DNA of 64,000 nt from Galerina marginata (Eukaryota; Basidiomycota; Agaricomycetes; Agaricales; Galerinaceae). Made by a program: the position numbers and the translations under genes. The notes under the pieces were generated by a model, which saw only the letters and a program-made list of their open reading frames with translations, did not search any database and was not told the DNA's origin. Positions 39,262-61,810 of this stretch are shown here, piece after piece. The stretch covers positions 620,001 through 684,000 of the forward strand of contig JAECYW010000003.1 in NCBI GenBank assembly GCA_023014335.1, given 5' to 3'. Each line of letters opens with the position of its first letter. Position 1 is the stretch's first letter.

Positions 39262-40520
39262 GACTCGAACCAGTGGTCCAAAAAAAAAATCTGTTTTTAT
39301 TTTGGCTCGCGGTGTCGAGTAGGAAAGGCGTTGCGGCATGCTTCGGTCGGCTTTGGTTTTTCCATCCAGGTAGATCGGAGCCGTCGAGGAAAGTAAAATA
39401 CACCGAGGAAACACGCGCTAAAGTCATTCCTTCCTGGGACTCGAACCAGTCGGCACAAAAATACGAGGTTCTTTTGGACTCGAAGTGCCGAGAGAGAGAG
39501 GCATTGGGGCGTGCTTCGGTCTGGTGTTTGGTTCGAGTTCGGGTGCGGGGTAGTTGGCGAATAGCACTGGCGGTTTCAAAGCACTATCAGAGAGGGAGAA
39601 AGAGCGAGAGAGAGGGAGAAAGAGAGAGAGAGGGAAAGTCATTCAGGTAGATCGGAGTCATCAAGGGAAAAAAAAAACAAACACACCTAGGAAGCACGTC
39701 CTGAAATTCCAAACATACTATCGAACCAGTAGGTCCAAAAGGACCATGTTCTTTTGGGCTCGTACCGTCGAGAGAGAGGCAGTGGGGCGTGCTTCGGATC
39801 GGCGTTGGTTTGGGGGATAGTTTAGCGTTTACAGCAGAATATTGGCCGATGAGGGAAAAGAACGAGGCACTCGAGTAGGTCAGGGATTGTGGGAGGAGAG
39901 CCAATCGAACAAGCCTAGGAAGCAAGCAGCATTTTTACCACTCACTGCGAATCGAACCAGCCGGTTCAAAAAAACCACGTTTTTTTGGGCTCGCAGTGTC
40001 GATGGAAGAGGTAATGGGCGACGTGCTTCGGATTGGCTTTGGTTTGTGTACAGAGAAGTCAGAGAGAAATGATAATGAGAAGAGCGTGGAAAGACCACTG
40101 GCAGGGCAGAATGGATGAGGAAGCCGCTTGTACGTAGTTACCTTGAGCTTCCTGGGTAAATTGGTAAAGAACGTGGAATGGTCCAGGAGAAATTGGCTCA
40201 CCAGAACGACAACACAAGTGAGACATCCGGAGGCGTTAGAAGAGGCGTCGCGGGGCATGCTTCGGATTGGTGTTTAATTTGAGTTTGGGTGCGGCGGGGT
40301 TGGGGAATCGTACTGGGGGGTTTCGAAGCGGTAGAGTATCACACAGAGAGAGGGGGTAGAGGTGGGAAAGCAAACACGCCCATGAAGCACACAATGAATT
40401 ATTTTCTCCCAGAACTCGAACCGGTCAGCCCAAAAAAACTATGTTCCTTTGAGGCCCCGCTGTCGAGTAGAAGAGATGAAGAGGCATATTTACAGTATGC
40501 TTCGGATCGGCGGTGGTTTG
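39262..40520 (-). repeat. Nested-palindrome repeat array, left (5 units, minus orientation)
   Basis: Units at about 39262-39362, 39439-39540, 39721-39815, 39950-40050 and 40413-40520, plus a half unit near 40236-40290. Read on the minus strand each has (A)CCAAAxCCGAxCCGAAGCATGCC, a variable stretch, CTCGACACTGCGAG, (T)CCAAAAGAAC...GTTTTTTGGAC, then ACTGGTTCGAGT. The order and spacing match the plus-oriented units right of CYS3. Between units, minus-strand intron-like pieces occur (donor GGTGAGCCAATTTCTC, acceptor TTTACCCAG, about 40158-40207). Frames are not kept from unit to unit except for a short LDTASPKE-like piece, so a structured RNA or foldback element seems likelier than a protein. 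Confidence 0.7.
39590..39641. repeat. (AG)n-rich simple repeat
   Basis: GAGAGAGGGAGAAAGAG-type purine tract between array units. Confidence 0.85.
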
Positions 40521-41289
40521 GCAGCAGGGTAGTGAGAGGAACAGTGCCAGGATCTTTGCATTGAAAGGACCGAATCAGAGGAGAAACTGGGTCACCGGAG
40601 GGACAGCCCCAAGGGTAAGACATCCAGCGGCATCGTGCAGGGAGATCCAAAAGGGCTTTTTACGTGTGCGTAACAGACGGAGCGCCATAGGAATGGAGGG
40701 CATCCCGAGCGTTTATACTAGAACTCATCATGCATCGAAATCGGGTCATAAAATGACATCACGTACCACATCGTGATCAGCTCATCCCATTCATTTCCAT
40801 GATCCTCGCACCGCTCGTGTCCCCACCCTGGGCAAGAACCATCCCAGCCTTCAATATCAATATAAGCTCAACTGCGACGAGCATACGTGTTCGCCCTCTC
40901 ACGACTGACGTGAATACGTTGCACGACAGCCATCCAGTGATTCCAGGAGCTCTTCTAGAACGTGCCAATGATGTTCCGAGGAAACGGGGGTGGGGTCGAA
41001 ATCGAATGAGCAAGCAGCACGACACCGATAAAGGAAAAGGAAATCGCCGCCATCTTTACCCAGTCCGATCACGTGCGTAGGTGATCGGTAAGCGAAGCTC
41101 GCCATAATTTGCAATGAGCCAGCGCGACTTGCGTTGTCGACCACACCGGAGCAAGGATGACAACGCGATTATTCATACGGTCGGGGTTCTTCTCGTTACC
41201 GCTACCCACCCCTGCTGCTTTAAAGCCCTAGTTCCGGCTTGAGACACCTTCCACTCTTGTTCCCTGTCCCATCCTATCCTCTCTCCTCT
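40521..41289. promoter_or_regulatory. Upstream region of CYS3
   Basis: No gene. About 40655-40760 is homologous in inverted orientation to 60655-60775 (GACCCGATTTCGATG and GGCGCTCCGTCTGTTACG, as read on the right-hand copy). The last 200 bp before the ATG turn GC- and pyrimidine-rich (CTCTTGTTCCCTGTCCC...), as is usual for a basidiomycete promoter. No clear TATA box. Confidence 0.4.
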
Positions 41290-42903
41290 ATGTCGCCGGC
41301 TCTTACTCTATCAGCGACGATCGACGACGCTGCCTATGCCAATGCTAATGGCACAAACACCAGCACCAGCACTAGCACCAGTAACGGCGGAGTGCACACC
41401 AACGGAGCCCCTCACACCCCCGGCCCCGCCCACGTCAACGGCAGCACCCTCAAGAAACACCAAGACGGCTTCGGGACCCGCGCGATCCACGTCGGGTCCG
41501 AGCCAAACGCAGAGACGGGCGCCGTCATCCCCTCCATCTCTCTCAGCACGACGTATAAGCAGTCCGCCGTCGGCGTGCACCAGGTTCGTTCCCTTTCCCT
41601 TTCCCGTCCTCATCTCGCCACATGCTCCATTCCATTCCCTCGTCCGGATCTTACTAACCACCCACTCCCTCCCCAATCAATACATACAGGGCTACGAATA
41701 CTCCCGCTCCGGCAACCCAAACCGCAACGCCCTCGAATCCACCCTCGCCTCTCTCGAAGCAGGCGGCGCCCACGCACTCGCCTTCGCCTCCGGCTCCGCG
41801 ACAACCGCCACCGTCCTCCAGTCTCTCGGCCCGAACGCGCATGTGGTGAGCGTTAATGACGTGTATGGAGGCACGTTCCGGTATATGCGGAGAGTGGCGG
41901 GGGAACTCCAGGGGTTGGAGACTACGTTTTTGGATTTGGAGAATGCGGGGGATGAGGAGATCTTGGCTTCGTTTCGGGAGAACACGAAGGTGTGTCCCTC
42001 CGCTCCTTTCTTCTTACTTCTTACTTATTTCACTAATCCTTCACCCAGCTGATATGGATAGAATCCCCAACAAACCCAACCCTCCGCCTAATCTCCATCC
42101 CCCGTCTCTCCCACCTCGCCCAGTCCCACCCCTCCCACCCCCTCCTCCTAATAGACAACACCTTCCTCTCCCCCTTCTTCGCCTCCCCCCTCCTCCTCGG
42201 CGCAGACATCGTCCTGCACTCCCTCACAAAGTACATAAACGGGCACTCGGACGTCGTCATGGGCGCCTTGATCCTGCCCTCCTCCCCGAAACACGATGAA
42301 TGGGAGAGGAGGCTGAGGTTCCTGCAGAACGCGGGCGGGGCGGTGCCGAGTGCGTTCGATGCGTGGCTTGCGCAGAGGGGAGCGAAGACGCTGCATTTAC
42401 GGATGAAAGCGCACGGGACGAACGCTCTAGCAGTCGCCCGCGCGCTCGAAGCGGAACCGGGGGTGGAGGAAGTCGTCTACCCGGGCCTACCCGGAAAAAC
42501 CGACGCCTCCCGTCTCCGCAACCTCCTCGCCTGGCGCATGCTCAGCCCGCACTCGCACGCATACATCCTTGCCACCACCGGTTCCTCCCCACTCACCTCC
42601 CCACCCCCTGCCTCCGGGTTCCCTTTCAGCGGCATGATCTCCTTCCGTCTTTCGGGCGGGCTCGCCGCCGCCGACAGGTTCTTGACTTCGACTAGGCTGT
42701 TCGTGCTGGCGGAGAGTCTGGGCGGGGTGGAGTCGTTGGCGGAGCATCCGGCGAGGATGACGCATGGGAGTATACCGGAGGAGGAGAGGGAGGTGTTGGG
42801 CATTGGGGAGGGGTTGGTTAGGCTTAGTGTGGGAGTTGAGGAGGAGGAGGATTTGGTGGAGGATGTTAGGAGGGCTGTTAGGATTGCTGCGGAGGGGGTT
42901 TGA
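41290..42903 (+). CDS. CYS3: Cystathionine gamma-lyase
   Basis: Three exons, 41290-41583, 41690-41989 and 42049-42903, all splitting between codons; 482 residues. This PLP enzyme cleaves cystathionine to cysteine, ammonia and 2-oxobutyrate in the cytosolic reverse trans-sulfuration pathway. Family blocks are complete: RAIHVGSEP, ISLSTTYKQS, YEYSRSGNPNR, FASGSATTATVLQSL, NDVYGGTFRY, WIESPTNPTL, DNTFLSPFFASP, HSLTKYINGHSDVVMG with the PLP lysine (SLTK), FLQNAGGAVPSAFDAWL and RLFVLAESLGGVESL. The last blocks resemble fungal CYS3 more than methionine-pathway gamma-synthases. Oddities are a 60-residue low-complexity Ser/Thr/Asn N-terminus, and an insertion near residue 360 relative to the roughly 390-residue yeast enzyme. 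The GC-rich third positions contrast with the AT-richer surroundings. Homocysteine/methionine gamma-lyase activity cannot be excluded. Confidence 0.92.
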
Positions 42904-43825
42904 TTGGATTACGCGTGTAGTTGTGGATTTGAGCGGACGGTTGTGATACCCCCTTTGTGATTTATATGCTTTCCCTCCTCCTCACCCGAGTTGGGTTGGA
43001 TGTTAGTTAGACAGTTAGACGGACTTGGAGACGCTTTAGAATTAAAGAAGTATTACGCGTTTATGCGTTCAAAGAATGTAATTTTATAATTCTGCGTACT
43101 GTATCATGGGTCAGAACAACCTCAGTTCAAGTCGTGAAATTTGCTGATACGGTTGGTTGGATGTTTGTCGTGTTATAATGCCGCGTACTACAATTTACAG
43201 CAATTAGCGGTACGTAGAGCGCGGGCCTATGTTTTTCCGAATGCGGCGAATTTAGATGAATTTAGGTTGATTGTGAGTATTCGCAGAATAGAATAGCATG
43301 GTCGGTTGTCAATTCTCATTCGTTTACAATCAAAATAGAACCACTATGTAGTACTGGACTCGAGTTGTAAACTTGACTGCGCATCTCATCTCCGAGTGTA
43401 AAAGATACAACTTCAAGAAAGATTGAGTTTTGATTCAGAGCGAGTTGGAGAGGTAAAATTAGTTTCGAGAGTGCGCTGCAGTGTACAAGTTGTCAATGCT
43501 GTGATTCTGGTATATGTATGTACTCAAACGAGGAAAGTTCTGTCTTTTGCTTTTGCTTTTACCTTTGTACGCGCGTACTAAATTAGGATTAGGACTCGGA
43601 AGGACTCGGAGCGACGCGACGCGAATGAATCACATGGTTCGCGCTCGCGCTATCGTGATCTAATCTGGTTTTCCTTAGCCTAATCGGTCACCACTTGCTC
43701 ATGGCTCTTCTCCTTTGTCCTCTTATCACCCACACTGACACTGAAGCTGCCGATGTCTGGAGCTTAAAGGGATCAAAGCTGCATGATTTGGATGGAGTCT
43801 GAGATCTGATTCCCTACCCTAACGT
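42904..43825 (+). other. CYS3 3' region, start of the duplicated block
   Basis: The trailer, including GTGATACCCC, AGTTAGACGG and GAGACGCTTTAGAAT near 42940-43040, recurs after both CYS3 fragments at about 57150-57270 and 59395-59480. Near 43600-43670 the motif GGAGCGACGCGACGCGA...GAATCACATG starts a block that recurs near 55318, 57540, 59595 and partly 61245. No gene seen. Confidence 0.5.
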
Positions 43826-43830
43826 GGTAG

Positions 43831-45060
43831 GCAAAACCAACCGCCGACGAAGCATGCCCCGCTGTCTCTCCGAGTCCACCTCGACACTGCCAGCCCAAAA
43901 GAACGAAGAACTTGGTGTTTTTTTTTGTGCGACTGATTCGAGTGTGCAGGGTAATTTGGATAAAATCTGGGGGCATGCTTCCTGGGCTTTGTTCGTTGGC
44001 TGTTAATCACGCCAGTTTAAGCGTTGCTCTGAATCTGAACGCCCTAGATAAAGATTTCGCCCGCGAAGTTCAAACACAACCACCGATGTGGACGAAGCAT
44101 GCCGTTTGGTGTTGTCCCCCCTTCTCCTCGATTCGGTGGGTCCAAATGAACTTGGTTTTCTTTGGAGCTACCGGCTGGATTTGGGATTTGAAATAATCCC
44201 ACTCGAGTATGCTTCTTGGGCTCAGGCTTGTTTGCTCTTGAATTCCCCTCGAGTCTCGATGGCCCTCGATCTGCTCGGTACTCGTACTTATGTGACTTGC
44301 TGCTTCCATCGTTGAATGTTTACTGTGAGCCTTCCGCTGTTCGTGGCGTTTAATTGAAGTTCTGGTGAGCCGATTCCTCGAGGATCAAGTCTTATTGTTA
44401 CTTAAATTCTTCTCAGGTCTTTTTCATACTCCTCCTTTCATCTTTCGCCGATTCTCACAAGAACCATTCATGAACTACGATGCCCTCGAATGCTTAATGC
44501 AAATGCCGACGAAGCATGCCGTTCAAGATTTCGTTTTATCCCCCTCGACACCACAAGTCCAAAGAGACTTGGAGATACTGGTTCGAGGTAGATGTAGATG
44601 TTGGGCAATAATACTTGCGAGGCATGCTTCTTCAGATTTGGCTCATCAGATTTGGCTCGGGGTTATTTGCTTGCCATGGCTAATTCCTCTCAAGCCCGTG
44701 GCCGCTGATCTACTCTCGACTCTGCGGTCGAGCTTCCCTTTCATCGGTCAACAGATACGATCACCTTTGCGATTATTAAAGATTTGTTATTCGGTGAGCT
44801 AATTTCTCAAAGTTCACTTCAAGTTCTAATAATTTACCAATTTATCCAAGAAAACTTCTACAGAGACACGGACACTCCAAGTCTGTTCCTCCCAGGTCTT
44901 TCCGTACTATTTCTTTTACCGCACTCAAACCAAAGCCGATCCGAAGCATGCCACTCGTTCTCTACTACTCGACAGTGCGAGCCCAAAGGAAATTATCTTG
45001 TTTTTTTTGGACCAACTGGTTTGATGAGATTGACGAGCGAATACCGGCATGCTCCATAGA
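43831..45060 (+). repeat. Nested-palindrome repeat array, right block 1 (4 units)
   Basis: Units at about 43831-44000, 44069-44240, 44489-44660 and 44930-45060. Each opens near GACGAAGCATGCC or GATCCGAAGCATGCC and has CTCGA...TCGAG around a stem of GTCCAAA...TTTGG type. Most close with GGCATGCTTC or a variant, followed by TGGGCTTTGTT or GGGCTCAGGCTTGTT. The closing GGCATGCTTC is the exact reverse complement of the opening GAAGCATGCC, so each unit is a nested inverted repeat of about 130-170 bp. Intron-like GTGAGC...CAG pieces lie between units (about 44365-44418 and 44791-44850). Confidence 0.75.
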
Positions 45061-45507
45061 CTTATTGGCTTTGCTGTCAACAGTCCTCGATCGAGTCCAA
45101 TGGCGCTTTCTTCCCTCCATCAGCCAACTGTACCATAATCAATCAGAGATCGGAGGTATATCAGCTATCGTCCTACTTTCTCAATTCACGATGGTCGAAT
45201 GGAAATCTTGGATTTTCCAGGAACCTCGTCTTGAGATTGGGAATGGAAAATGCGGAGGCGATAGACGATATGCTTCCGCCGCTATATATTTGATTTGATT
45301 ACCTCTCGACGACGCCAGACTCAATGGTGGCGCTCGATTCTCTTGCTCCCACGCCGTCATTTATTTATTTACGTCTGCGCAGATCGGATACGATACGTCC
45401 TTTTTCGAAAGTACATACCACAAGTTGCTGTAATTCTGGTATATGTACTCAAACAAGGACGAAAGTTCTGTCTTTGGCCTTTGTACGCGCGTACTAAATT
45501 TGGATTA
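45061..45507. other. Array remainder up to the CACTA-like insertion
   Basis: Similar in part to about 56850-57000 and 58745-58900 (regulator-less, no gene). The GTACGCGCGTACTAAATT motif near 45485-45500 also occurs at about 43567-43585. The final TTA (45505-45507) is the left target-site duplication of the large element. Confidence 0.5.
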
Positions 45508-45930
45508 CACTGCTGGCACGGGACTATTTCAAAGTAGCTAAAATCCGAGTAAAATAGTATCTAGCTTGTTAAAATTTTAGACGCTTTTTCTTCTCCATAA
45601 AATGTCGATAAAATGTCAAATGTTTCGGCAGCTGAGGGATACAAAAAGGAAAATACATATTGTCAATTTTAGGCGAGGTAAAAAGATTCATTTGACACAA
45701 GTCTAATTCTAGGTGAGATTCTCCTCAAATGTTTCATTCTATCGAAATTTTTGGCCTCCACATATTTCAACTTTCCGTTAATAAGAAAAGAGAACAAAAG
45801 TCAAAGTTGATACATTTTTTTCAATATAATAAAATGCAAACTTTGTCCAAGAAAATTAGATTGTCTAAAGTATTTCTTGAATGTAATACGTTACGGAAAA
45901 GAAAATGTATCGCCCCGCGTGCACCCCACC
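45508..45930 (+). repeat. Left terminal inverted repeat of the 9.8-kb element
   Basis: Reverse complement of 54890-55311 with scattered substitutions and small indels. The first 65 or so bases are identical. Confidence 0.9.
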
Positions 45931-46149
45931 AATCGGGTAGTGGAGACAGTCGACAAGTAGTGTACACACACAGAAGCTCTGGCAGTGCCAGCCCCATACT
46001 CCCCTGGTGCACTCGCGATGTGCAATCACAATCGCCACGGCTGAAACAAAGCGTGAGAGTGAGGGCGGGAGTTGTGAACGACGAGAGCAACCGAGACTCC
46101 GAGAGCAGAGTATCGAGAATTGAGATAATAGGACGAGCCATTGGAAATT

Positions 46150-46440
46150 AAACTAGTCGTGCAATTGACAGGAGATATCAGAGCGGTTTAAATAGCATAA
46201 ATACGTCGGAATTTGAAGTAAAAAAGCGAAAGGAAGAGGAGGGGAAGTGGACAATAAAAATTCGAATAAGGAAATGAAAATGCATCGAAATGTGTCAGAG
46301 AGTTGGGGAAGGTGAAAGAGAATGAAGAATGAAGCACTTAACAATAAGAAACAGGGTTCATGAGAAGTGAAACAATTGCCTTAATTCTGTGAAATAAAAT
46401 ACAGTGGGAGGTTGAGGCGATTTATCCCGGCGATGCACGA
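46150..46440 (+). repeat. Internal direct repeat, unit 1
   Basis: About 285 bp, roughly 80% identical by eye to 49030-49320 (anchors TTTAAATAG, TTTGAAGTAAAAA, GAATAAGGAAA, ATGCAT, AACAATAAGAAA, GGCGATTT). A shorter relative lies outside the element near 37930-37995. Confidence 0.8.
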
Positions 46441-46639
46441 TGGTCCCGGACTGACGAGATGTCGGGTTGGAAGTAAATGTCAGATACAGCGAACAATGTG
46501 AAATTGAGCTGAAAAATGGCGCGCCATGGATGGGGGAATGGATTTATTGGTCGTCAGGCTGAGTCGTTTGCGGAATGGGCTCCGGTAGTATGCGATCCGC
46601 TGTGGCTAGCCTAAAAGGTGTGAAACGCTGGACGCACGC

Positions 46640-46790
46640 CTAACATGTGCAGTCAGTAAAATCTGAGGATAGAGTGCACAGAGATTCGTGACAGTTCGGA
46701 AATTTGAGGACAAGGCAGATTCCAAACCGTGCATTGGGAAACCAGGGCATGGTTGGAGATAACTTAGGACAAAGGGCATACTGAGAATAA
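46640..46790 (-). repeat. Internal inverted repeat with 50250-50400
   Basis: The minus-strand reading CCCTGGTTTCCCAATGCACG and the following CTTGTCCTCA match the plus strand near 50305-50350. The two copies face each other about 3.5 kb apart inside the large element. Confidence 0.75.
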
Positions 46791-46833
46791 TAATGACTCG
46801 GAGTCGTCGGGCTGACAAACAAAATGGATGATT

Positions 46834-47477
46834 ATGTCAAACAACCACAAAGCCACTTCCACTTTCCACTTCGACAATCATATTACAAGTCCTTCCGTAA
46901 ACAGGTGAGCAATAGTCCATATTCTTCAAACCTAAATTCACCCCGTTTCCAGTCCACCTCGAACTTGCGACTCGCAGCTAGGACGTCATCTTGGACGCCC
47001 CGCCGCCCAATTCGCGATTACTTCTATCTATCCCCCATGTCGTGGAGCACGCCTTCGCTGCGCGAATATGGCTCGCGAGCCTTTCGAAGTAAATAGGTGA
47101 GGAATAGTTTATATCGGCGTCATATTCATATTCATACTCACCTTGTTTCCAGCTTACCTCCAACTCGGGCGATGTTTGTGAACCCACTCGCCTCCTCCTC
47201 AACTCACAAGTTCGTGGTCGTCTGCGTCCTAATTCCACACCGGGGCGTACATCGTCGCTGTGTAAAGATCAGCCCGAACCCCGAGATCAAAGCAGCAGAC
47301 TTACCGCGATACGAACAGCTGGACGGCCTCCTCAACAATACCACCTACCCTTGTTCGTTCGTTCGACTGCGCCCTAGCCGCCGGAGGGCATGGCTCGCAG
47401 ATCCGGGTCTGGGTTTTAGGTCGTGGCCCGAGAGGAACTTTGAGGTGAGCCGGCATTCGCTGCTCTGCCCACGATAG
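46834..47477 (+). CDS. Predicted spliced small protein in the 9.8-kb element (179 aa)
   Basis: Exons 46834-46904, 46953-47096 and 47153-47477. Introns of 48 and 56 bp have donors GTGAGC and GTGAGG, and both acceptors are TTTCCAG. Starting at ATG 46834 the joined frame stays open to the stop at 47475-47477; unspliced, every frame is broken. The product is basic (for example RLRPSRRRAWLADPG). I recognise no domain. The near-identical donors and acceptors of the two introns suggest an exon-intron duplication. It may be a captured host fragment or an element-specific gene. An alternative donor (GTGAGC at 47445) could extend it. Confidence 0.45.
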
Positions 47478-47542
47478 AAGTTGAAGTCGAAGTTGAAGGA
47501 GGAGGGGAGTGGGGTGAGGAGGCAACACCACCCCTCCCGCTT

Positions 47543-48300
47543 ATGCTTTTGCTGGCGACTTTGTCTGCCTCCCGACTTCCCGCAGTCGTTGGCGCTCTTG
47601 CTGCCCGTCACCGCCCCGCAGCCTATGGTTACCCCCACCCACCGCCCCCAGTTTGTTTAGTCGTTGGCTTGGTTTGGAGTCGCGGGAGGGGTGCGGGTGC
47701 ATGCTCGAAGAGCACTACGACACGGGTGGGCGTTAGCTACGCGGTGCACGCTAGAAGAGGAGCGGGAGGACGTACCGGAGCATGCACCCCCCGTGTGCGA
47801 CCACCCCGGTCCCCGTCGTACTTCCTCCCCGTCCTCGCCCGCCTCTCGTATTCGCCGCGCCCTGGGTCCTGGGTCAAGTCAGCCGGTGCCCGCGTGCGCT
47901 TCTTCGGGAAGACAAAGACGGCCTACAACATCAGCAGCATTCCAGAAAACCATGGGGGTTTTTCGAGACGAGTCACGGGAGGTGGAGGCGGGAGGTTGGA
48001 AGTCGAGGGCGGGAGTACCGAGACCGCCGTCATTGCACGGACAGCGGTCTCGACTATTTCCAGTCGTTGCCGTCTTCGTTGTTCGCTTTGCAAAGTGGCA
48101 TGGTCATTGGAGCGCGGGAGGGGGGAAAGAGGAAGGAGGGGCTGCGGGATGGGAGACAAGGCCAGGGCAAAGACGACGGCGCGGGTGCAGGAGGAGAGGC
48201 GAAGCGGAAGTGCCAGCAAGACGGGAGGGTGCTGCAGATGGATAAGGGTGAAGGAAAGGGTGCCCGTGCAGGATGAGCGCCATCACTAGTTCGCTCTAAG
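47543..48300 (+). other. GC-rich block mirrored in the right half of the element
   Basis: Open in one frame for 248 codons. The stretch LVWSRGRGAGACSKSTTTRVGVSYA (about 47665-47745) corresponds in frame to LVWSREMDVGARSKRNTTTRAGVGYE encoded on the opposite strand at about 54080-54170. This is therefore an inverted duplicate of part of the minus-strand gene near the right end. The rest of the frame is low-complexity and probably not coding. Confidence 0.4.
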
Positions 48301-48311
48301 CCGGCCTGGAA

Positions 48312-48782
48312 TTGTGGAATACGACCCCGCCGCTCGAAGACGGGTCAGGAACTTGCAGAAGAAACCCTCAACAAACCAGCACTGACCTAGTGACCCCTCA
48401 TCCTCTCTCCTCCTCTCCTCCTTCTAACCCAGCCATAGAACAGGGACATATGATGGACACCCGCCCTCCGCGCCAGCCTCTTTTTCAAGATTTCCCCGTA
48501 CCCGCATTTCACCACCCTGGACATCCACACCTCTTCCCCCAACCAACCCAAGGTGCCGAACTTATGAACAGGCAAGCCCACGATATTGAGAAGCAACGAC
48601 GACAACGACAGCGACAACTGCTGAAAGTAATCGAGCCCGCCGTCCGACTGTTAACTGGATTGTGGATGGTACTCGCAGGTGCGCTCCGACGAGTTTTGGA
48701 GTTGGCTTTGGAGGCGCAAGTGGAGAAGCAGGCGCAGGGTGAAAGAGAATGCCCTGCGGCCCTCCTCCTTTCGAGCTCATAA
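48312..48782 (+). CDS. Hypothetical 156-codon open frame in the 9.8-kb element
   Basis: Open from 48312 to 48782. It is proline-rich at the start, then has a basic helix (DIEKQRRQRQRQLLK) followed by an amphipathic or hydrophobic helix (VRLLTGLWMVLAGALRRVLELALEA). No family recognised and no splice support. The antisense strand is also open, as expected for GC-rich sequence, which weakens the call. Confidence 0.25.
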   Translation: MWNTTPPLEDGSGTCRRNPQQTSTDLVTPHPLSSSPPSNPAIEQGHMMDTRPPRQPLFQDFPVPAFHHPGHPHLFPQPTQGAELMNRQAHDIEKQRRQRQRQLLKVIEPAVRLLTGLWMVLAGALRRVLELALEAQVEKQAQGERECPAALLLSSS

Positions 48783-49029
48783 TGCACCCCGCGACCCGCA
48801 CTCCTCGAACCTCCGCACTTCCACACCCACTGTGACCCACAGGTCCAGGCCCAATCATCGGAAGAACGAACAAGGGCACGAACGAAGTGGGAAGGTGATG
48901 GAGGTAACAACGGAGTGGGGGGTCTCGTTGGCGTTGCGGCTTGAGGAGTTGGAGCCAGGGCTGGAGGCGCAGGCGCATGTCTCCCTGCTCAGTTTGTCAA
49001 CAACCGCACTACTGGAGTGCTATTCACTA

Positions 49030-49320
49030 AAGATAGACGACAATACAGGAGGTTTTAAATAGTATAAATATGTTGGATTTGAAGTAAAAATGCGAAACGA
49101 GGAGGGAAGTGGAGAATAAAAAATTTGAATAAGGAAACAAAAATGCATTGAAATGAGTCAGAAAGTTGGGGAGAGGTGAAAGACTCATCGAGAGAATGAT
49201 GAATTATGAACTGAACAATAAGAAAAAGGGTTCGTGAGGGTGAAATGTGACCGTCTTGACTCTAAAATAAATTATGGTGGGAGTTTCAGGCGATTTGTCG
49301 GGGCGATGTGCGATGCGATC
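49030..49320 (+). repeat. Internal direct repeat, unit 2
   Basis: Partner of 46150-46440. Confidence 0.8.
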
Positions 49321-50249: not shown

Positions 50250-50400
50250 TTGATCGGCTCACTACTTATTATTGTCTCAGGCTCTCACAATTCTCTGACC
50301 GTGCCGTGGTTTCCCAATGCACGGTTTAGAATCCTCCTTGTCCTCAGAACTCAAACATCAAGTTTCCTACTGTTTCTGGGATCCTATATATATAGCATCA
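50250..50400 (+). repeat. Internal inverted repeat partner of 46640-46790
   Basis: Shares GTGGTTTCCCAATGCACGG and the CTTGTCCTCA stretch with the minus strand of 46640-46790. Confidence 0.75.
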
Positions 50401-50600
50401 GGAAAACGTCCAATCCGTCTTTGGCGTCTTTGTCTTTGGAATCAGTGTCTTTGATGTCTTTTCTCAAAGATTCCATCTTTGATATGTCTTTGGCTGGTCT
50501 CCGTCTTCAGTACATTGTCTTTGTCTTTGGAAAATGCATCTTTGTGTCTTTGAAAATTCCATCCGTCTTTCAAAGTGCGAAATGGTCTTCAGCGTCTTTA
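50397..50600 (+). repeat. GTCTTTG-rich element, copy 1
   Basis: Begins ATCAGGAAAACGTCCA, continues CGTCTTTGGCGTCTTTG and repeats GTCTTTG more than ten times. The same opening is present on the minus strand at 52645, so these are two copies of one small element in opposite orientation. The far ends are not resolved. Confidence 0.6.
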
Positions 50601-52429: not shown

Positions 52430-52645
52430 CTACAAAGACAGTTTGAGACGCTGAGTAGTCAAAGCAAAGACGCCAAAGACGTGCTTCACAAAGACACTTG
52501 CACATCTTTCAAAGATGTCCGACGTCTTTGGGAGACATGTACCTCCCTTTGCAAAGACGTGTCGTCTTTACGTCTTTGGCGTCTTTGATGTCTCTGCAAA
52601 GACGCCAAAGACGCCAAAGACGAACTGGACGTTTTCCTGATGAGG
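52430..52645 (-). repeat. GTCTTTG-rich element, copy 2
   Basis: Minus-strand copy with the same ATCAGGAAAACGTCCA start. Many CAAAGACG/CGTCTTTG pairs face each other, so it can fold extensively, like the AAGACCGGTCTT MITE in the LINE. Confidence 0.6.
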
Positions 52646-53072
52646 GATCCTGGCCGCCATCTTTGGATCACTACATTGATATCGATATGCACTGCAACTC
52701 TCTGCACACACAAACGGCACATTTTGCCGACTGCACGCGTTAGGCATGTATCTTACGTATTGTGCTGTGCAACAATCCACTTTATCCTGCAGGAATGCAC
52801 AAATCACGCATTCTGTGCATAATAAAATGGATCGCGTGTTACCAGAGGCCATATTGCAAACGACCCTGCCAATCTGACAACCGGTTTTATCACATCCCCA
52901 ATGCTTTGCTTGCTATTGTTCCCAAGTAATTGTATTGTCTGACATACTTACTAGTTCTCGACGGCCTTCACAAGTCTATATATTTCTACGTCGTTCGTGT
53001 GCGGTTGGTTCGCTGCTTTCTGGGTATTCATTTGTTATGCCCTTTGTCTTTGTTCGCTGACCATGGTTTTAG

Positions 53073-53977
53073 ATTACAACAGAGGCAACAAAACAGAATA
53101 GGTAAGCACAACGTTCTCGAAATACCTTTCAACAACTAACCCTTCTCCTCAGCTCCCAATCCTGCCTACAACCACGAAACGGCGGCAGCGGCATGCCCCC
53201 CGGGCTTCCAGGTAAGATGTCAAGTTCTTCGGTTTTTACAGTGACGTCACATTCATTTCGGGTTTGTTTCCTTCCAGGCATCGTAACGTTGAAAAGAGAC
53301 CGAAAATTGAAGAGGTAAGCGCACGATTTCCAATGATTGACGACACGAAAGACCCACCATGCTTAACGATGCCCACAGCTCCATTTCTTCCGGTGCATTT
53401 ACGAGAGAGAGAAGGAGACAGGGCGTGATACGCAAGTCGACAAGCGTCGAGCAAGGTAAGCCTGTCCCAACCTCAATGTCGGTGCCGCGGGACGCTAATC
53501 GCCCCCCCCTCTTCCTCTCCTCCTCCCTTTCCACCATTCCAGACCGACTTGGGCGAGAGCAACGCCGGCGCTCGTCGAGAGAGATGTGCGAGTACTCTCT
53601 ACCCAAAAGCAGGTATGTATTCCATTTCTCTCATTACCCGCGCCGGTTCTGACAACCCCCGCTCTTCGCCTCTTTCCTCCTGCGCCTTCCTCATCAGCCT
53701 TGTCCTCCGTTTGCACCCCCCTCCCGTCTCGCTGGCACCCCAGCTCCAACTCTGCCCCGTCGCCTTCGCCTTCTTCTCCGTCTGCGGCCCGTCCCGCATG
53801 CCTCCCTCCTGCGATCCAACGCCCACGTCACTCCGCGAGACAAACGACGGCGATGGCCGCGAATACAAGAAGGAGGACGAGGGCAAGGAAGTACGAAGGA
53901 CGAATAGGTTTGCGCACGCGGAGGGTGTATACGACGGTACGTCCTCCTCCTCCCCTCTTCTCGCGTGGGCCGCGTAG
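53073..53977 (+). CDS. Predicted multi-exon gene in the 9.8-kb element (5' end unresolved)
   Basis: A chain of tiny exons, 53073-53101, 53153-53211, 53278-53314, 53379-53455 and 53543-53612, then a last exon starting after one of several AGs near 53697 and running to the stop at 53977. Donors are GTAAGC, GTAAGA, GTAAGC, GTAAGC and GTATGT, all canonical. One frame stays open through every junction, with pieces such as RNGGSGMPPGLPG, SSGAFTRERRRQG and VEQDRLGREQRRR. Consistent phase over five junctions is unlikely by chance. I recognise no domain. Upstream exons probably exist between 52950 and 53072 but could not be fixed. Confidence 0.4.
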
Positions 53978-54074
53978 CTAACACCCGAGCAAGAGGAGGG
54001 GAGTGGGGGTAACTACGGGCTGCGGGGATGACGAGAAGAGAGGGATGAAGGGGAGTACGCGACGACGACGACGA

Positions 54075-54645
54075 CTAGGTCGTAGGCTCGTAGCCAACAC
54101 CCGCCCTTGTCGTAGTGTTCCTCTTTGAGCGTGCACCCACGTCCATCTCGCGGCTCCAAACCAAACGACCGAACGAACGAGGGGAGGGGGGCGGTGGTAA
54201 CGACGGGCTGCGGGCGACGGCGATAGGCTGCGGGAAGTCCGCGAGTTCGATCGACTGGAAAGCAGGTAAGCAAGGGTTTGAAGACTTTATATGAACTGTC
54301 CCTCACCTGTTTACTTGGAAAGGTTCGCGATGAAGAGGGGGTGCAGCGGTGACGACGTCGACGTCGACGACTGCAGGAATTCGGGATCGCAGAACCGGTG
54401 GGGTGATGTTGGGAGGGCACGCCGGCGCCGAGGTCTTTGGGCTGCATGTAGAGCCCAGTGAGGATGTAGACGGCGGCTTGGCCGAGGGCGATGAGTGCGA
54501 AGACTGGGGGAAGTGGGTTAGTGACCGGAGTCACGCGAGTGTATTGGGAGGGAAGGAGAGACGAGGTATTGGATCTCGACGATGCAGAAGGTTGCTCGTC
54601 GTCGTGGTTGATGTCGAGGTGACAACTTCGCCACTGATCGGACAT
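54075..54645 (-). CDS. Predicted two-exon gene near the right TIR (172 aa)
   Basis: Minus-strand exons 54645-54307 and 54254-54075 with a 52-bp intron (GTGAGG donor, CTTTCCAG acceptor), phase 0. The first exon holds a possible membrane helix (VFALIALGQAAVYILTGLYM) followed by an Arg-rich patch. The second exon has an in-frame inverted duplicate at about 47665-47745. Function unknown. Confidence 0.4.
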
Positions 54646-54889
54646 TTGACAGGCAACCCGGAGCTTTGGTTATTGCGAAAACCGGGATCTGATTTCCACT
54701 CATCGCTCAACAACTTCCTTATTACATTGCACTCGTAGAGTCCCTATTCACGGCCTCGTGACGGCGGCGAGCTTAGCGAGCGGGGGCCCAAGCGAAATGT
54801 GAAAATGAATTGTTTATTGTGAAGCACTGTCGGCACTCTTGGTTCTATTTTTGTATTCACCACTTGTTGACAATCTCCACTCCCGGATT

Positions 54890-55311
54890 AGTGAGGTGCA
54901 CGCGGGGCGATATATTTTCTTGTCCGTAAAGTCTTACATTTAAAATATATTTTAGACAAGATAATTTTTTTGGACAAACTTTGCATTTTATCAGATTGAA
55001 AAAATGTATCGACTTTGTCTTTTGTTCTCTTTTCTTATTAAGGGAAATTTGAAATATGTGAAGGCTGAAAATTTCGACAAAACAAAACCTTTGAGGAGAA
55101 TCTCACCTAGAAATAGACTTGTGTTAAACGAAAATTTTACCCTAGCCTAAAATTGACAATAGGTATTTTCCTTTTCGTATCCCTTAGCTGCCAAAACAAT
55201 TGACATTTTATGGACATTTCATGGAGGAGAAAAAGCGTCTAAATTTTTAACAAGCTAGATACTATTTTACTCGGATTTTAGCTACTTTGAAATAGTCCCG
55301 TGCCAGCAGTG
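54890..55311 (-). repeat. Right terminal inverted repeat of the 9.8-kb element
   Basis: Mirror of 45508-45930; ends CCAGCAGTG at 55311, followed by the TTA duplication. Confidence 0.9.
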
Positions 55312-55528
55312 TTAGGACTCGGAGTGACGCGACGCGACTGAATCACATGGTTCGCGATCGCGCTATCGTGATCTAATCTGGTTATCGGTCCGTCACCACT
55401 AGCTCATGGCTGTTTTCCTTTGTTTCCTCTTATCACCCACACTGATGAAACTACCGACACCTGGAGCTTAAAGAGACCAAAGTTGCATGATTTGGAGTCT
55501 GAGATCTGATTCCCTACCCTAACGTGTA

Positions 55529-56740
55529 CGCAAAACCAACCGCCGACGAAGCATACCCCGCTGTCTCTCCGAGTCCACCTCGACACTGCCAGCCCAAAAG
55601 AACGAAGAATTTGGTTTTTTTGAGCGACTGATTCTAGTATGTTTGATAAAGCCTGCGGGCATGCTTCCTGTGCTTTGTTTGTTCGCCGCCAGAGTTGCTC
55701 TGAACCCCCCATATTCCGGGCGAGAGGCAAACCAACCACCGACGAAGCATGCCGTTTGGTGTTATCTCCCCTTCCCCTCGATTCGGTGGGTCCAAGAGAA
55801 CTTGATTTTCTTTGGAGCTATTGGTTCGTATTTAGATAAAGAGAAAATCCCACTCGAGTATGCTTCTTGGGCTCAGGCTTGTTTTCTCTTGAATTCCCCT
55901 CGAGTCTCGATGGCCCTCGATCTGCTCGGTACTCGTACTTGCCTTACTTCTTCCATCGTTGAAGGTTTACTACGAGCCTTCCGCTGTTCGTGTCGTTTAA
56001 TTGTTGTTCTGGTGAGCCGATTCCTCTAGGATCAATTCCTATCGTTGCTCAAATTCTTCCCAGGTCTTTTTCATACTCTTTCTTCCATCTTTCGTCAATT
56101 CTCAGAAGAACCATCCATGACTACGCTGCGTTCAAATGCTTGATAAAAACGCCGACGAAGCATGCCGTCCAAGTTTTCGTTTTATCCACCTCGACACCAC
56201 AAGTCCAAAGAAACTTGGAGATACTGGTTCGAGGTAGATCATCATTGACAATATATGCGAAGTTCTGAGGCATGCTTCTTTGCCTCAGGGTTGTTTTCTT
56301 TCTAATTCCTCTGGAGTCTAAATGGCTGCTGATCTATTGACCAGTCGAGCTTCCCTTCATCGGTCAACGATTACGATGAGTTTTGCGATGATTAAGGAAT
56401 TGTCGTTCGGTGAGCCGATTTCTCGAGAGTCACTTCATGCAATTAACCGGTTTATCCAGAACGATCTTCAAGATCGGCAGGTACGCTTCATGCCTATTCT
56501 CCTCAGTCCTTTCCATACTCGTTGCTCCGCGTCTCTGATACTACTTCGAATGCTCCGAATATCCTTGCCCGAACCCCCCTGCACACTTCTCTCAAACCAA
56601 ACCCGAATCCGAAGCATGCCGCCCAATTTGCGTCCTCGACACTGCAAGTCGAACAGAACCTGATTACTTTGGACCTGCTAGTTCGAGTATCGACTAGAGA
56701 AAGTTTGGCCAGGCACGCTTCCTGTCAACGGGCTTGTTTT
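55529..56740 (+). repeat. Nested-palindrome repeat array, right block 2 (4 units)
   Basis: Units at about 55529-55690, 55730-55900, 56145-56310 and 56594-56740. The first three parallel the first three units of block 1 (43831-44660) in order and sequence, showing that the whole block was duplicated. GTGAGC...CAG intron-like pieces recur at about 56014-56064 and 56410-56460. Between units, short frames such as MSFAMIKELSFGEPI are shared with 58261 on but do not extend. Confidence 0.75.
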
Positions 56741-56999
56741 ATTTTGCTTTCCTCTCGAAGGCCGCTGACTTTTTCCAGCTTTCCGTGGACCCGGATCCGA
56801 AGCACATCGACTACATCCTCGATCCACCAGGTTATAAAAAATGGATTTATAATGATCCTCGCCTTGTGAGCCGAGATCCTCCGATTTGCTTGATCAAGCT
56901 AGTAAGACGATGTGCTTCCGCAGGTCTTTGGTCTTGGGTTTGATTATTTTTCGACGATATTGTGCTGGCTTGAGGTGATCTCTTTCTTTCTTCCACAAT

Positions 57000-57420
57000 G
57001 TTAGATATTCGGTTAGTGCTGAGAAATATGGTATGTTTGAGGCTTAGTATGTGGGTTGAGGAGGAGAAGGATTGAGTTAGGGATGTTGTGGGTGCTGTGA
57101 TGATTGCTACTGGGTTGGGATGGGAGGGAATTTGAATGACGTTGTAAATGATCGGACAGACGGCTGTGATACCCATTCTTATTGATCCGGCTCCCTCTCC
57201 CTCTCATTTTATTGGTTGTCCTTAAAAAGTTAGACGGGCTCGGAGACGCTTTAGAATCAAATATTACGCGTAACATGTGTTCAAAGGACGTCTTTTTTTT
57301 TTAATTCCTCGAACTCCCCCTTTGTGGCTAAGCGATATAGTAGGGTAGCTACATACCGTTGTTCTCTGTCTAGGTTTCAAAGAATGTAACTTTATAATCA
57401 TGGATGAACGACCTCAGCTA
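57000..57420 (+). pseudogene. CYS3 3'-end fragment 1
   Basis: Matches the last 60 coding bases of CYS3 and its trailer: GTTGAGGAGGAGAAGGATT...GATGTTGTGGGTGCTGTGATGATTGCTAC corresponds to about 42835-42890. It then follows the trailer with GTGATACCC, AAGTTAGACGGGCTCGGAGACGCTTTAGAAT. Frames are broken. It arose with duplication of the CYS3-array block. Confidence 0.7.
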
Positions 57421-57817
57421 TGAGAGTTTCTGATGCAGTTGATTGAATTGAATGTTGACGTGTATCACGTACTAATATAAAGTATGTATGTATGCAAACG
57501 AGGACGAAAAGTCTGCCTTTTGCATTCGTACTCGATTTGGACCGGGAGCGACGCGACGCGATTGTATCACATGATTCTTATCGTGATCTGAAATCTAATC
57601 TGGCTGCCTTATCGGAGTGTGAGAGGATGGCAAGGTCAATCATTCACTCCCATGGTCAATTCTTCGTACCACCCCTCCACTAACACTGACACTGTGGCTA
57701 CCGACCGCTGAAACTGAAGCTACCGACGTGAAAGGGACCAACTTTGCATGATCTCGAGTCTGACTTGGCCATTCCCATCCCCCGACTCGGTACTTTCTGA
57801 ATCCCTAACCTGTACGC
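57421..57817. other. Duplicated spacer
   Basis: Resembles 43560-43825 (GGGAGCGACGCGACGCGATTG near 57541, then the CACTGACACTG...CTACCGAC stretch). No gene. Confidence 0.4.
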
Positions 57818-58650
57818 AAAACCAACCGCCAACGAAGCATGCCCTCCAATGTTTTCTCCATCACTGCCGGTGCGAGTTCAAAAGAACCTGGTTTGTTTGG
57901 ACCTCCTGCTTTGAGGTGATTGATGTTGGACAATTGTGCTGTGGGCATGCTTCTTGTCAACAGGCTGTTGGATTCTGTCTCACCCGATCGACCATTCCCA
58001 TTCCTCCAACGTTGAACTCCTCTGATTTGATTCGCCTGCAAACAAAACCAAACGCCGATATCGATGAAGCATGCCGTCGGGTGTCTCAATGTCTCCCTCG
58101 ACGCCACGAGTCCAAAGAAACCTTTAATTTTTGGAGATACTGGTTCGAGGTCCGTACCAATTGGAAGCCCGTGTTGGGGCATGCTTCTTGTCAATGGGCT
58201 CGGGGTTGTTTGCTTTCCGATTCCTCTCGATGCCAGTGGTCGCTTCGGTCAGCATCTACGATGAGCTATGCGATGATTAAGGAATTGTCGTTCGGTGAGC
58301 CAATTTTTCGAGGTTTACATTATGATCACACAATTTACCAGTTTCTCCAGGACGATTTTCAAGATAAGCATATACGCTTCATGCCTTTTTTTCTCCCCAG
58401 GTCTTTCCATGCTCGTCTCTCCGCCTCTCTGATACTACTTCGAATGCTCCGAATATCCTTGCCCGAACCCCCCTGCACCCTTCACTCAAACCAAACCCCG
58501 ATCCGAAGCATGCCGCCCGATGCTTCTCCTCCTCCTCGACACTGCAAGTCCAAAAGAACCTGGTTTCTTCGGACCTGCTGGTTCGAGTGTCATTTTCAGG
58601 CAGTATGGTCAGGCACGCTTCCTGTCAACGGGCTTGTTTACTTTTTCTTT
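57818..58650 (+). repeat. Nested-palindrome repeat array, right block 3 (3 units)
   Basis: Units at about 57818-57970, 58045-58230 and 58490-58650. The third is close to consensus: CCGAAGCATGCC, CTCGACACTGCAAGTCCAAA, a stem with TTTCTTCGGAC, CTGGTTCGAG, and a GGCACGCTTCC close. A 342-codon open frame across this block is not conserved in the other blocks and was not called. The GTGAGCC...CTCCAG intron-like piece is at about 58295-58350. Confidence 0.75.
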
Positions 58651-58989
58651 CCTCTCGATGGCCGCAAGCTTCTTCCATCTTTCCATGGACCCGGATCCGA
58701 AGCACATCGACTAAGCCCTTGCCTTCTCGATTCACGAGGTTATAAAAATGGATTTATTACGATCCTCGCCTCGTGAGCCGAGATGTGATTCGTTCGATCA
58801 AATTCATAAGACGATGTGCCCCCACAGGGTCTTCGGTCTTGGGTTTGATTATTTCACGATGATCTTGTGCTAGATTCAGGTCGTCTCTTTCTTTCTTCCA
58901 GTGTTATATATTCGTTTCGTGCTGGGAAACGTGGAATGTACATCCGATTTCTAATACGCAAAATTCTCACTATCGATTCAGCACTTACG

Positions 58990-59560
58990 GAACGGTCCTA
59001 CTTCCCTCCGGCCTCCGCAATACCCTGCGCGTTTGATAGCTGGCTCGCGCAGAGAGGAGAGAAGACGCGACATTGCGGATGAAGGCGCATGGGAGGAATG
59101 CGTTGGCGGTTGCGCAGGTGTTTGAGCTGGGGTGGAGAACGTTGTGTATCCCGGTCTGCCTCGGCGGACGGAGGCATCGTATAGACACGGGTTCGTCCAC
59201 GCCTCTACGCTCACAGACCCCATTCAGCGGCATGATCTCCTTCCACACTAGGGGAGGTCTCTGAGGAGGAGGATTTGGTGCGGATGTTGTGGTGCTGTGA
59301 GGATGGCTACTGGATAGGGTGCGGTGCGGGAGAGGTTTTGATCTTGTGATCTGAGACGGTGTTTTGTAGATGATTGTGGATTTTTCGGAATGGTTGTGAT
59401 ACCCCGTTTCATTTATACGCCTCTACCTCATTGGGTTGGGTTGGCTGTTGTTAAAAAGTTAGACAGAGACGTTTAGAAATTAGGAGTCGTTTCTCGTGCT
59501 TTAAGTTTCAAGGACTGCCACGGTAATGTAATTTTATAATCATGATACAAAAACCTCATT
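58990..59560 (+). pseudogene. CYS3 3'-end fragment 2
   Basis: Degenerate copy of CYS3 exon 3. Pieces corresponding to FDAWLAQRGAKTLHLRMKAHG, NALAVA, EVVYPGLP and PFSGMISF are visible between 59020 and 59245, with frameshifts between them, followed by the gene's trailer to about 59480. About 100 codons of the parent between the VYPGLP and GMISF blocks, and again after it, are shortened or missing. Not functional. Confidence 0.85.
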
Positions 59561-59865
59561 GGTGAAATTGTCGACTCGGGCTCAATTTGAACCAGGAGCG
59601 ACGCGACGCGACTGAATCACATGAGTCACGTTCGCACTATCGTGACCTAATCTGCCTGTAGTTTCCTAATCCGATCCGATCATTTATTTTCAACAGTTCA
59701 ACTTGCGCATTCACCCTCATCGTTTCTTCGTACTGGATCACCGGCAGTGGATTTCACCCCACTATGACACTGCCAGTGACTAGTGACCGCTTGACCAGCG
59801 TTGACCTGTCCATTCCCGTTCTGCTACTACTGGTCGTATTTCCTATACCAATGCCATGCTCGCAA
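59561..59865. other. Duplicated spacer
   Basis: Contains the GGAGCGACGCGACGCGACTGAATCACATG block near 59589, as in 43600 and 55320. No gene. Confidence 0.4.
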
Positions 59866-60018
59866 ACCAAACGCCAGCGAAGCATGCCATCCGCTTAATT
59901 TGTCTCTCCCACTCGACACTACGAGTCCAAAGAATTTTGTTTGTTTGGACCCTTCTATTTCGAGTTGTTTTGATGAAAGCTTTACCCATGCTTCCTGGGC
60001 TTTGTTTGTTGGCGTTTA
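59866..60018 (+). repeat. Nested-palindrome unit, right block 4, interrupted by a MITE
   Basis: GCGAAGCATGCC, CTCGACACTACGAGTCCAAAG, TTTGTTTGGACC, TTTCGAG and CCATGCTTCCTGGGCTTTG are present in order. The right edge is split by the TA-flanked element at 60019. Confidence 0.7.
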
Positions 60019-60501
60019 CAGCAGATTGCAAATATAATGGCAGTCTCGTAAAAATAGAAACATGTCTCAAATTCGTTCGACTTAGAATATTTTGATTCAT
60101 TTTTGACTTCGTCAATTTTGGCCTTTCTATGTGTGAGCCGGTCAGCACCAGCTTGCTCCTGCTCCTTTTACACCATGAGTAGAGTCAGTAAATTGCCAGA
60201 TCGGCCATAATCTCGTTGTTATCAATCAATTTCTTGGGGCAAGCCTACTGTTGGCCTACTGAAGAGTATGGGAATCTATCAGCTTTGGGAAGGGAGGGAC
60301 ATGAGCGAGGAGATGAACGAAGGCATAGGAAGCCACTGCCACTAGCCAGAAACCCATCTCGAGGGGTCGGGATGGGCACCAGGCAAGCCTGTCAAACTCT
60401 CAAAACGACGAAGTCGGAAATCGATCAAATTTTTCTAAGTTGTACGAATTTGAGACATGTTTCTATTTTTACGAGACTGCCATTACATTTGCAATCCGCT
60501 G
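60019..60501. mobile_element. 483-bp MITE with about 105-bp TIRs and TA duplication
   Basis: Ends CAGC(A/G)GATTGCAAAT, then a long near-identical arm with GGCAGTCTCGTAAAAATAG and ACATGTCTCAAATTCGT on both sides (60019-60125, and inverted 60395-60501). TA lies immediately outside each end (60017-60018, 60502-60503). The sister unit at about 43990-44005 reads GGCTGTTAATCACG across the site, consistent with insertion at a TA. TA duplication and CAG ends suggest a Tc1/mariner-type non-autonomous element. Confidence 0.75.
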
Positions 60502-60503
60502 TA

Positions 60504-60849
60504 ATGCTCCTCGACGGCTGGCTCCAGACTCTCAAGTGACTCGCTTTTCAAATTCTTCTCGTCCATTGACCGACATCTATCTGACTTGAATACCCCGAGC
60601 TTTGGGATGATCATGTGGCCTCGGATCGAGCTGGTCGTGATATCTGAATCTATGCGGTACGTAATGTCGTTTTATGACCCGATTTCGATGGATAATGGAT
60701 GATGGCTTTTCGATAGAGGGTAAACGTTCAGAATGCCCTCCATTCTAAATCCTATGGCGCTCCGTCTGTTACGTACCCATAAGACCTGATCATTCCCATA
60801 TCCCCCAGCTAAGTACCCTACCCCCAATTTGTATCCAACCCAAAATGCC
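60504..60849. other. Array spacer homologous to the CYS3 upstream flank
   Basis: About 60655-60775 is the inverted counterpart of about 40655-40760. No gene. Confidence 0.5.
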
Positions 60850-61810
60850 TGCGTGAAGCGTGAAGTGTGCCACCTGGAGTCCTTGTTCTTGAAACTCAGG
60901 CTGCGCAGTGCGACCCCAAAGAACAGATCTTTTGGTTCTTTTGGATCTACTGGGCTGAGTTTCTAACAAAGAACCTTTATCAGAATGACACTGGGGCATG
61001 CTTCCGGATCCTGGGCTTGGCTTCATGTTGTTCGCTTTCCTCTTGACGGCTCCCGATCGACTTGTCCTTGTGTAGCTTACTTTTTTTTGCTTTCATTCGG
61101 TCACTGTTAACCACGAGCTTTGCAATGGTCATGCAGCCGTCATTCTGGTGAGCCGATTTCTCGGGAGTCACTTCATGCAATTTACCAATTTATTCAGGAA
61201 GAACTTCAAGATAAGCACGCACGTGCTCGATTGGAGAAGGGCAGACGCGACGCGACTGTATCACCTCATTCGATTCTGTGCCTAATTGCTTTTGGTACGA
61301 GTTGGCCCTAATCGGACCATTGACATTGCTTGCTTATTCAGATTCACCCATTACCGCTTCTTCCTTCGTACCACCACCCCGCTGACCTGATCACCCCCAT
61401 TCTCAACTACATTCCCATTCTCCACTACTTTCGCTCCCAAACCTGTACACGATCCACTGCCAACGAAGCATGCCGTCTGATGTGTTTGGGTCTTCGCCTC
61501 GACTCTGTGGGTCCCAAAGAACTTGATTTTTTTTGAACTACTTGTTCGAGTGTTAAGAACACGGTCTAGGATGCTTCTTTGGCTCGGGCTTGTTGCTGGC
61601 TTGTTTATATCCGAATTCTCTTTTACGGCTCTGTTTTACTCGAGTTGCTTGCTGTCTAAGTCAAACCAAACCCCGATCCGAAGCATGCTGCCTGATGCGT
61701 CTGCTCCTCCTCGACCCTGCGAGTCCAAAAGAACCTGAATTCTTTGGACCTGCTGGTTCGAATCTCTGGGTAGGTAGATTCGGCAAGGCACGCTTCCTGT
61801 CAATGGGCTT
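60850..61810 (+). repeat. Nested-palindrome repeat array, right block 5 (3 units)
   Basis: Units at about 60850-61040 (diverged, still CCAAAGAACAGATC...GGTTCTTTTGGATC and GGGGCATGCTTCC), 61450-61620 and 61662-61810. The last has a very regular inner stem, GTCCAAAAGAAC/TTCTTTGGAC. An intron-like GTGAGCC...TTCAG piece lies at about 61151-61198. The CGCGACGCGACTG block recurs near 61245. Confidence 0.75.

Follow-up and report, generated by a model that had tools for sequence, protein, structure and literature searches.

What has been amplified around the cystathionine gamma-lyase gene CYS3 of the mushroom Galerina marginata, and is it as RNA or as DNA that its symmetry matters? The gene lies in a window of 64,000 nucleotides (C23:620001-684000, C23 being the contig that holds it, in a genome of 69.3 Mb and 43 contigs; coordinates without this prefix are those of the window). 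There, a first-pass annotation had described about 20 nested palindromes at 39262..61810, arranged divergently around CYS3, and had proposed two readings: a family of structured RNAs or of hairpins that are processed into small RNAs, and an unusual foldback transposon that multiplied in place with the block. The palindromes lie where it placed them, as part of an array that runs on to 36482 on the left and to C23:902404, where the last unit ends, on the right, and that includes further hairpin classes. We propose, with about even confidence, that tandem amplification here has built a cluster of non-coding hairpin-RNA genes, of the microRNA (miRNA) or hairpin RNA (hpRNA) type. This explanation is judged to fit best because the units are uniformly oriented, their nested stems carry loops, and both arms change more slowly.

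The array and its units

Units were located with profiles, the first built from 17 window units and later ones iterated, which also catch class II, and were counted if they scored above 30 bits; lower scorers were left out (ten of classes I/II and five of class III, with six more in C23:874001-915000). The profiles covered C23:600001-610000 and 620001-915000, and the other contigs were searched with patterns and one BLAST. The first profile recovers five units pointing left (39212-40528) and 15 pointing right (43823-61825), at 31.8-140.5 bits; with the later profiles, 22 units above threshold start within 39200-61810. The total on the contig is 152 related hairpin units at 656.5-902.4 kb, a span of about 246 kb, with 26 inside the window. 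C23:620001-874000 holds 81 units of classes I/II and 60 of class III, eight of them on the minus strand, and C23:874001-915000 holds 11 more, all on the plus strand. The units form three stretches (656.5-707.2, 824.3-871.4 and 885.8-902.4 kb), and no profile match was found in window 1-36000, C23:707.3-824 kb, C23:600001-610000 or C23:902.5-915 kb.

Orientation switches across CYS3, as the first-pass annotation had observed: all eight units to the left of the gene are on the minus strand and all 144 to the right are on the plus strand. Off the contig, no unit copies were found by patterns and BLAST of the genome, searches that diverged copies could escape. Every place recovered was on C23: 12 for the class III perfect arms, 20 for the class I BLAST, 12 for class III block 2, 23 for class I block 2 and eight for the class I 3' block. 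One match to the class II profile, at 10 bits in locus L008 (E=0.005), was taken as noise.

A typical unit measures about 100-140 nt from end to end (91 pairings listed) and consists of an outer stem ending in GAAGCA...TGCTTC, an inner one whose motif is CTCGA/TCGAG for class I units and ATCTCA/TGAGAT for class III units, and an A-rich/T-rich stem-loop at the centre. The inner motif varies, and the exact string GTCCAAAGAAC quoted in the first description occurs nowhere in the window on either strand. There are at least three related classes (I, II and III), each with matching arms of its own: the outer arms are class-specific and usually self-matching (GAAGCATGCC/GGCATGCTTC, GAAGCACATC/GATGTGCTTC and GGAAGCATGGAAAG/CTTTCCATGCTTCC), and the 5' arms of classes I and II are A/C-rich. 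The three classes are probably homologous, since a CTCGACG...CGATCT-like downstream stretch, seen by eye in the consensus lines, is common to classes III and I; the profile for class II also takes in class I.

The order along the array is mostly several units of class I, one of class II and several of class III, repeating every 2-4 kb, the I and II labels having been assigned by us from the arms; the leftward group, read away from CYS3, runs from I to II and III. Unit flanks are homologous to one another, as in tandem duplication, and whole blocks appear to have been duplicated, because relics of CYS3 sit in two of them. Protein-coding repeats were ruled out because the lengths of the hairpins and the distances between them do not keep to one residue modulo 3 but take all three, which bears out the earlier remark that frames are not conserved between units. 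A tRNA or short interspersed nuclear element (SINE) origin, raised by a TGGTTCGAG box that recalls a B box, was also rejected: ARAGORN finds no tRNA in the window, and near-identical copies are confined to C23. The units also bear some resemblance to integron attC arrays and to AAV-like nested ends. A GGTGAGC...TTTATCCAG-like stretch, perhaps a small intron or the relic of an open reading frame (ORF), recurs after several units (44795-44850, 56410-56465, 58295-58350 and 61150-61205).

Probable constraint on the hairpin, as RNA or as DNA

Rates and folds were analyzed on the nearly full-length profile matches above 40 bits, 73 of 91 in classes I and II and 55 of 65 in class III. Stem columns carry 6.5 substitutions against 17.4 elsewhere in classes I and II, and 6.6 against 14.9 in class III, a two- to threefold slowing that is measured among paralogues only and is partly favoured by the way the units were found. 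Across 912 block-to-block alignments, mismatch was 12.7% in outer arms, 16.1% in inner stems and 27.9% outside units, the arms being marked by motif, a bias in favour of slow arms. Complementarity between arms exceeds chance, with a median local arm score of 31 in classes I and II (n=73) and 36 in class III (n=55) against a median of 17 and a 95th percentile of 24 in 300 segments drawn at random from where the region holds no units. All 11 units outside the training region, found by a profile of paired arms, exceed that 95th percentile.

Comparison with swapped arms from the nearest paralogue favoured a unit's own arms in 39 versus 17 of 58 pairs (p=4.9e-4) and in 32 versus 11 of 44 (p=0.0025). 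Covariation was scored at 18 named pairs in 53 class I units (60 were found, and seven below 30 bits were dropped). Cells changed on both sides numbered 23, against 9.6±2.9 after shuffling (0 of 500 shuffles as high), and the covariation score of 0.142 was above all 500 shuffles (0.112±0.007) and above slid structures (at most 0.082). A unit at C23:901150 reads GAAGGCATG / CATGCCTTC, with an extra, complementary base in both arms. Because stems change more slowly, own arms fit better and the covariation score exceeds that of shuffled and slid structures, the hairpin is probably constrained.

When the 73 and 55 units were folded, the minimum-energy structure paired the end hexamers with each other in 62 of 67 (I and II) and 41 of 53 (III) of those keeping both hexamers. 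Sense-strand energies relative to dinucleotide shuffles have a mean z of -3.05 (I and II, n=73) and -4.01 (III, n=55), and it is only after this correction that the folding advantage of the sense strand is significant (p=4e-5 and 0.002). The folds have the paired arms of a predicted hairpin precursor, as sought in miRNAs and miRNA-like RNAs (milRNAs), and the Dicer and Argonaute functions expected of a genome with such precursors are represented by Dicer_dimer at three places and 31 Piwi matches. In a hairpin-RNA cluster, transcription would proceed outward from CYS3 in both directions, yielding a single long transcript or many short ones, and each unit would fold into an imperfect hairpin of about 100-140 nt with outer stem, inner stem and central stem-loop. 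Dicer would then cut the hairpins into small RNAs to be loaded on Argonaute, as in the fish miR-430 and Drosophila hp-CG4068 clusters; transcription, processing and any target are the steps that we infer.

Targets were sought genome-wide with five conserved blocks at up to three mismatches. The core of class III block 1, GGCACCGGAAGCATGGAAAGC, occurs off C23 at three places with two mismatches, where chance would give an estimated ~0.06, and at a fourth with three, all inside matches to Retrotran_gag_2, a domain with 78 matches in the genome. Two of these read as Ty1/copia-type gag, CKTGPEAWKALKDAYEKNSRATR, with 18 nt identical. This identity is a lead for a defence role and no more, because the matches are copies of one element family, the three additional off-C23 matches at three mismatches are at about chance level, and the similarity stops soon past the core. 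We give little credence to the most specific form of the proposal, in which the locus would be a fungal counterpart of miR-430 and the primate C19MC, a single site where some 150 hairpin genes of three co-evolving classes had multiplied in higher-order repeats to the left and right of CYS3. It would make small RNAs, and at least those of class III would direct silencing against copia-type retrotransposons by way of the PEAWKA codons conserved in gag. The class III 3' block has two single three-mismatch matches, on contigs C7 and C22. A short gag ORF is present in two copies, at loci L033 and L034 (contigs C15 and C43); the copies share about 98% identity across 1,525 columns, and each is flanked by direct repeats resembling long terminal repeats (LTRs), about 1.3 kb apart (2 kb of each locus examined).

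Several observations weigh against a hairpin-RNA cluster. The antisense strand folds about equally (61 of 67 and 45 of 53 units pair their ends; mean z -2.40 and -3.46), the raw sense-minus-antisense energy is not significant (p=0.70 and 0.17), and the median unit energy (-43 and -46) is near the 5% tail of the control segments (-45.5), not past it. Selection on a sense RNA should tolerate G.U above A.C, an expectation that does not strictly define miRNA clusters; the strand-symmetric alignments contain G.U and A.C at 154:161 (I and II) and 118:117 (III), and counting them as tree events gives 41:34 and 69:66, with no preference for G.U. The arm change first described as G-T-type, GGCACGCTTC opposite GAAGCATGCC, gives an A.C mismatch when the sense strand is read and becomes G-T only when the opposite strand is. 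Among all possible partners, a unit's own 3' arm ranks first for no more than 9 of 73 units of classes I and II and 9 of 55 of class III (median rank 12 and 9). Two slid structures match the count of cells with changes on both sides (26 at -3 and 22 at +3, versus 23), and one reaches as high a number of pairs so changed (10 at -2). A scan of all column pairs against a tree-based null returned nothing at E<1 (best E=3.6 and 7.1), the best stem pair, 32-126, ranking third of about 14,000 with E=7.3, and RNAalifold found no pairs in the gappy 53-row class I alignment. Finally, no convincing near-match to four of the five blocks turned up outside C23, so that long complementarity to a target, as hpRNAs have, was not seen. 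The earlier suggestion of structured RNAs or hairpin precursors is supported in part: it fits the slow, co-varying arms, the orientation on each side of CYS3 and the Dicer and Piwi genes, but no wobble signature accompanies them.

The absence of a G.U preference and the near-equal folding of the two strands fit better with an array whose arms matter as DNA than with selection on RNA. In such an array, which we consider a doubtful explanation though the best of the alternatives, the palindromes would act as sites for dimeric proteins, as cruciforms or as substrates of template-switch correction during replication, would make no hairpin RNA, and would have expanded along with the CYS3 block through unequal crossing-over; co-variation of the arms is expected here too. 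However, DNA palindromes do not need the single orientation on each side of CYS3 or the A/C-rich 5' arms of classes I and II, nested stems with unpaired stretches would exceed the needs of a dimer site, and the sense strand folds better relative to shuffles.

The similarity of the arms could also be inherited rather than selected, if they are the terminal inverted repeats of a decaying family resembling foldback elements or miniature inverted-repeat transposable elements (MITEs). The units do have terminal inverted repeats, as expected of such elements, with ends about 100-120 bp apart, and the slid-structure counts and the null all-pairs scan leave room for no covariation beyond descent. Amplification in place, as first suggested, is visible in the higher-order repeats and in the CYS3 relics, which mark duplicated blocks at two places. 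The dispersed copies that would accompany a mobile family were not found off C23 by near-identical patterns and one BLAST, which diverged copies could escape; the homologous unit flanks point instead to tandem duplication, and the arms change more slowly than their surroundings and fit best within their own unit. We regard this origin as improbable. A cluster of some other structured non-coding RNA, not cut by Dicer, would share all of the fold evidence and is very unlikely: Rfam, searched up to E=1, gives no match in 50 kb of the array beyond the window and, in the window, five weak matches (best E=0.012) that all fall below gathering and outside the units, no tRNA occurs in the window, and a strict structural RNA should tolerate wobbles, of which no such sign is seen.

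If the hairpins of the proposed hairpin-RNA cluster are transcribed, the locus would be an unusually large cluster of its kind for a fungus, a natural experiment on the co-evolution of hairpin arms in about 150 paralogues within one genome, and a defined place to ask whether mushroom small RNAs counter retrotransposons. If they are not, palindromes held symmetrical at the DNA level across 246 kb remain unexplained themselves.

CYS3 and the features of the window

CYS3 (41292..42903, plus strand) reads as three exons and belongs to the cystathionine gamma-lyase family (Pfam Cys_Met_Meta_PP, E=7.9e-117). Its protein is 90% identical to that of Galerina marginata and 64-78% identical to the other 119 of the best 120 of 7,996 scored, and its best PDB matches are cystathionine gamma-lyases.

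The units to its left, all on the minus strand, begin with a class II-like hairpin at 36482..36620 (65.2 bits), followed by the window's only class III unit at 36716..36853 (103.4 bits) and a class II unit at 37119..37257 (71.9 bits) with 12-bp perfect arms (37130-37141 / 37231-37242) and palindromic ends GAAGCACATCAT. Five class I units follow: 39212..39371, with a degenerate 3' arm (82.2 bits); 39388..39544, with arms GAAGCACGCC / CGCGTGTTTC, and 39667..39821, with the compensated arms GAAGCACGCC / GACGTGCTTC, both from the first profile; 39899..40053 (88.4 bits); and 40367..40528 (65.2 bits), with a fragment at 40241-40285.

On the right, where all units are on the plus strand, class I units at 43823..44005 (124.3 bits), 44066..44244 (112.7 bits), 44485..44656 (102.3 bits) and 44921..45082 (101.7 bits) precede a degenerate class II-like unit at 45140..45283 (40.6 bits). 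An element of 9.8 kb whose ends form inverted repeats of about 480 bp (CACTGCTGGCACGGG...) lies inside the repeat block at 45508-55311, with TTA on either side; the paralogous block without it reads GGATTAGGACTC. It contains a separate 12-bp inverted repeat, GGGTGCATGCTC, at 47695-47706 / 47778-47789. Beyond it are class I units at 55521..55694 (118.6 bits), 55722..55895 (118.9 bits), 56143..56306 (108.2 bits) and 56586..56750 (120.3 bits; 3' arm GGCACGCTTC), and a class II unit, GAAGCACATCG / CGATGTGCTTC, at 56789..56931 (36.4 bits; 11-bp perfect arms). A relic of the CYS3 3' end stands within the block at 57040..57297 on the plus strand (68.9% identity over 270 columns, E=2e-18).

The next class I units, at 57806..57980 (113.7 bits), 58042..58216 (118.6 bits) and 58481..58650 (140.5 bits, the first profile's best match), are followed by a class II unit at 58689..58826 (43.5 bits) and by further plus-strand CYS3 relics at 59029..59467, in three pieces (59029-59101, 59219-59244 and 59374-59467). 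The series continues with a class I unit at 59859..60018 (104.4 bits), a divergent class I unit at 60826..61031 that scores 31.8 bits with the first profile and 18.5 with the second and stands outside both the 26 and the 152, class I units at 61446..61600 (111.1 bits) and 61655..61825 (129.2 bits), and a class II unit, GAAGCACAT / ATGTGCTTC, at 61864..61996 (54.5 bits). A 42-bp tandem repeat at 63203-63402 (4.7 copies, 92% matches) contains the palindrome GTCCAAGTTAACTTGGAC.

Five larger ORFs between the first two clusters were scanned and contain NACHT, TPR and helicase domains, with F-box-like and gag-like matches below curated cut-offs. ORFs with NACHT/NPHP3_N lie to the left of the first hairpin cluster (31718-33079) and to the left of the second (L022:5027-6754).

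Known systems of comparable architecture

Hairpin small-RNA loci have been reported in fungi, and a re-analysis re-assessed 1727 reported mi/milRNA loci in 41 species; in its main text the words tandem, clustered and polycistronic are absent, and the parts drawn on here describe no such cluster (PMC9757828). A literature search of limited reach found no comparable array in a fungus. The primate C19MC is, like the Galerina array, a large one-locus cluster of hairpin genes, with 46 miRNA genes in about 100 kb; in the parts of that account drawn on here, no fixed order of hairpin classes is described (PMC6346411).

The hp-CG4068 locus of Drosophila shares the tandem arrangement of inverted-repeat hairpins at one locus, with 20 copies in D. 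melanogaster and nine in D. simulans. Its copies lie on a common transcript and give rise to dcr-2-dependent small interfering RNAs (siRNAs), whereas the Galerina array has 152 diverged units over 246 kb (PMC10317233). In fishes, miR-430 occurs as multi-copy tandem clusters, mostly at one locus, the variants a, b and c forming triplets in zebrafish, so that several hairpin variants repeat there too as a higher-order unit, in tandem and at a single locus. Those are known miRNAs with consensus repeat subunits of about 0.2-1.1 kb among the rows listed, in contrast to the repeats of about 2-4 kb and diverged copies of three classes in Galerina (PMC10417697). In its architecture, the Galerina array most resembles miR-430, hp-CG4068 and C19MC.
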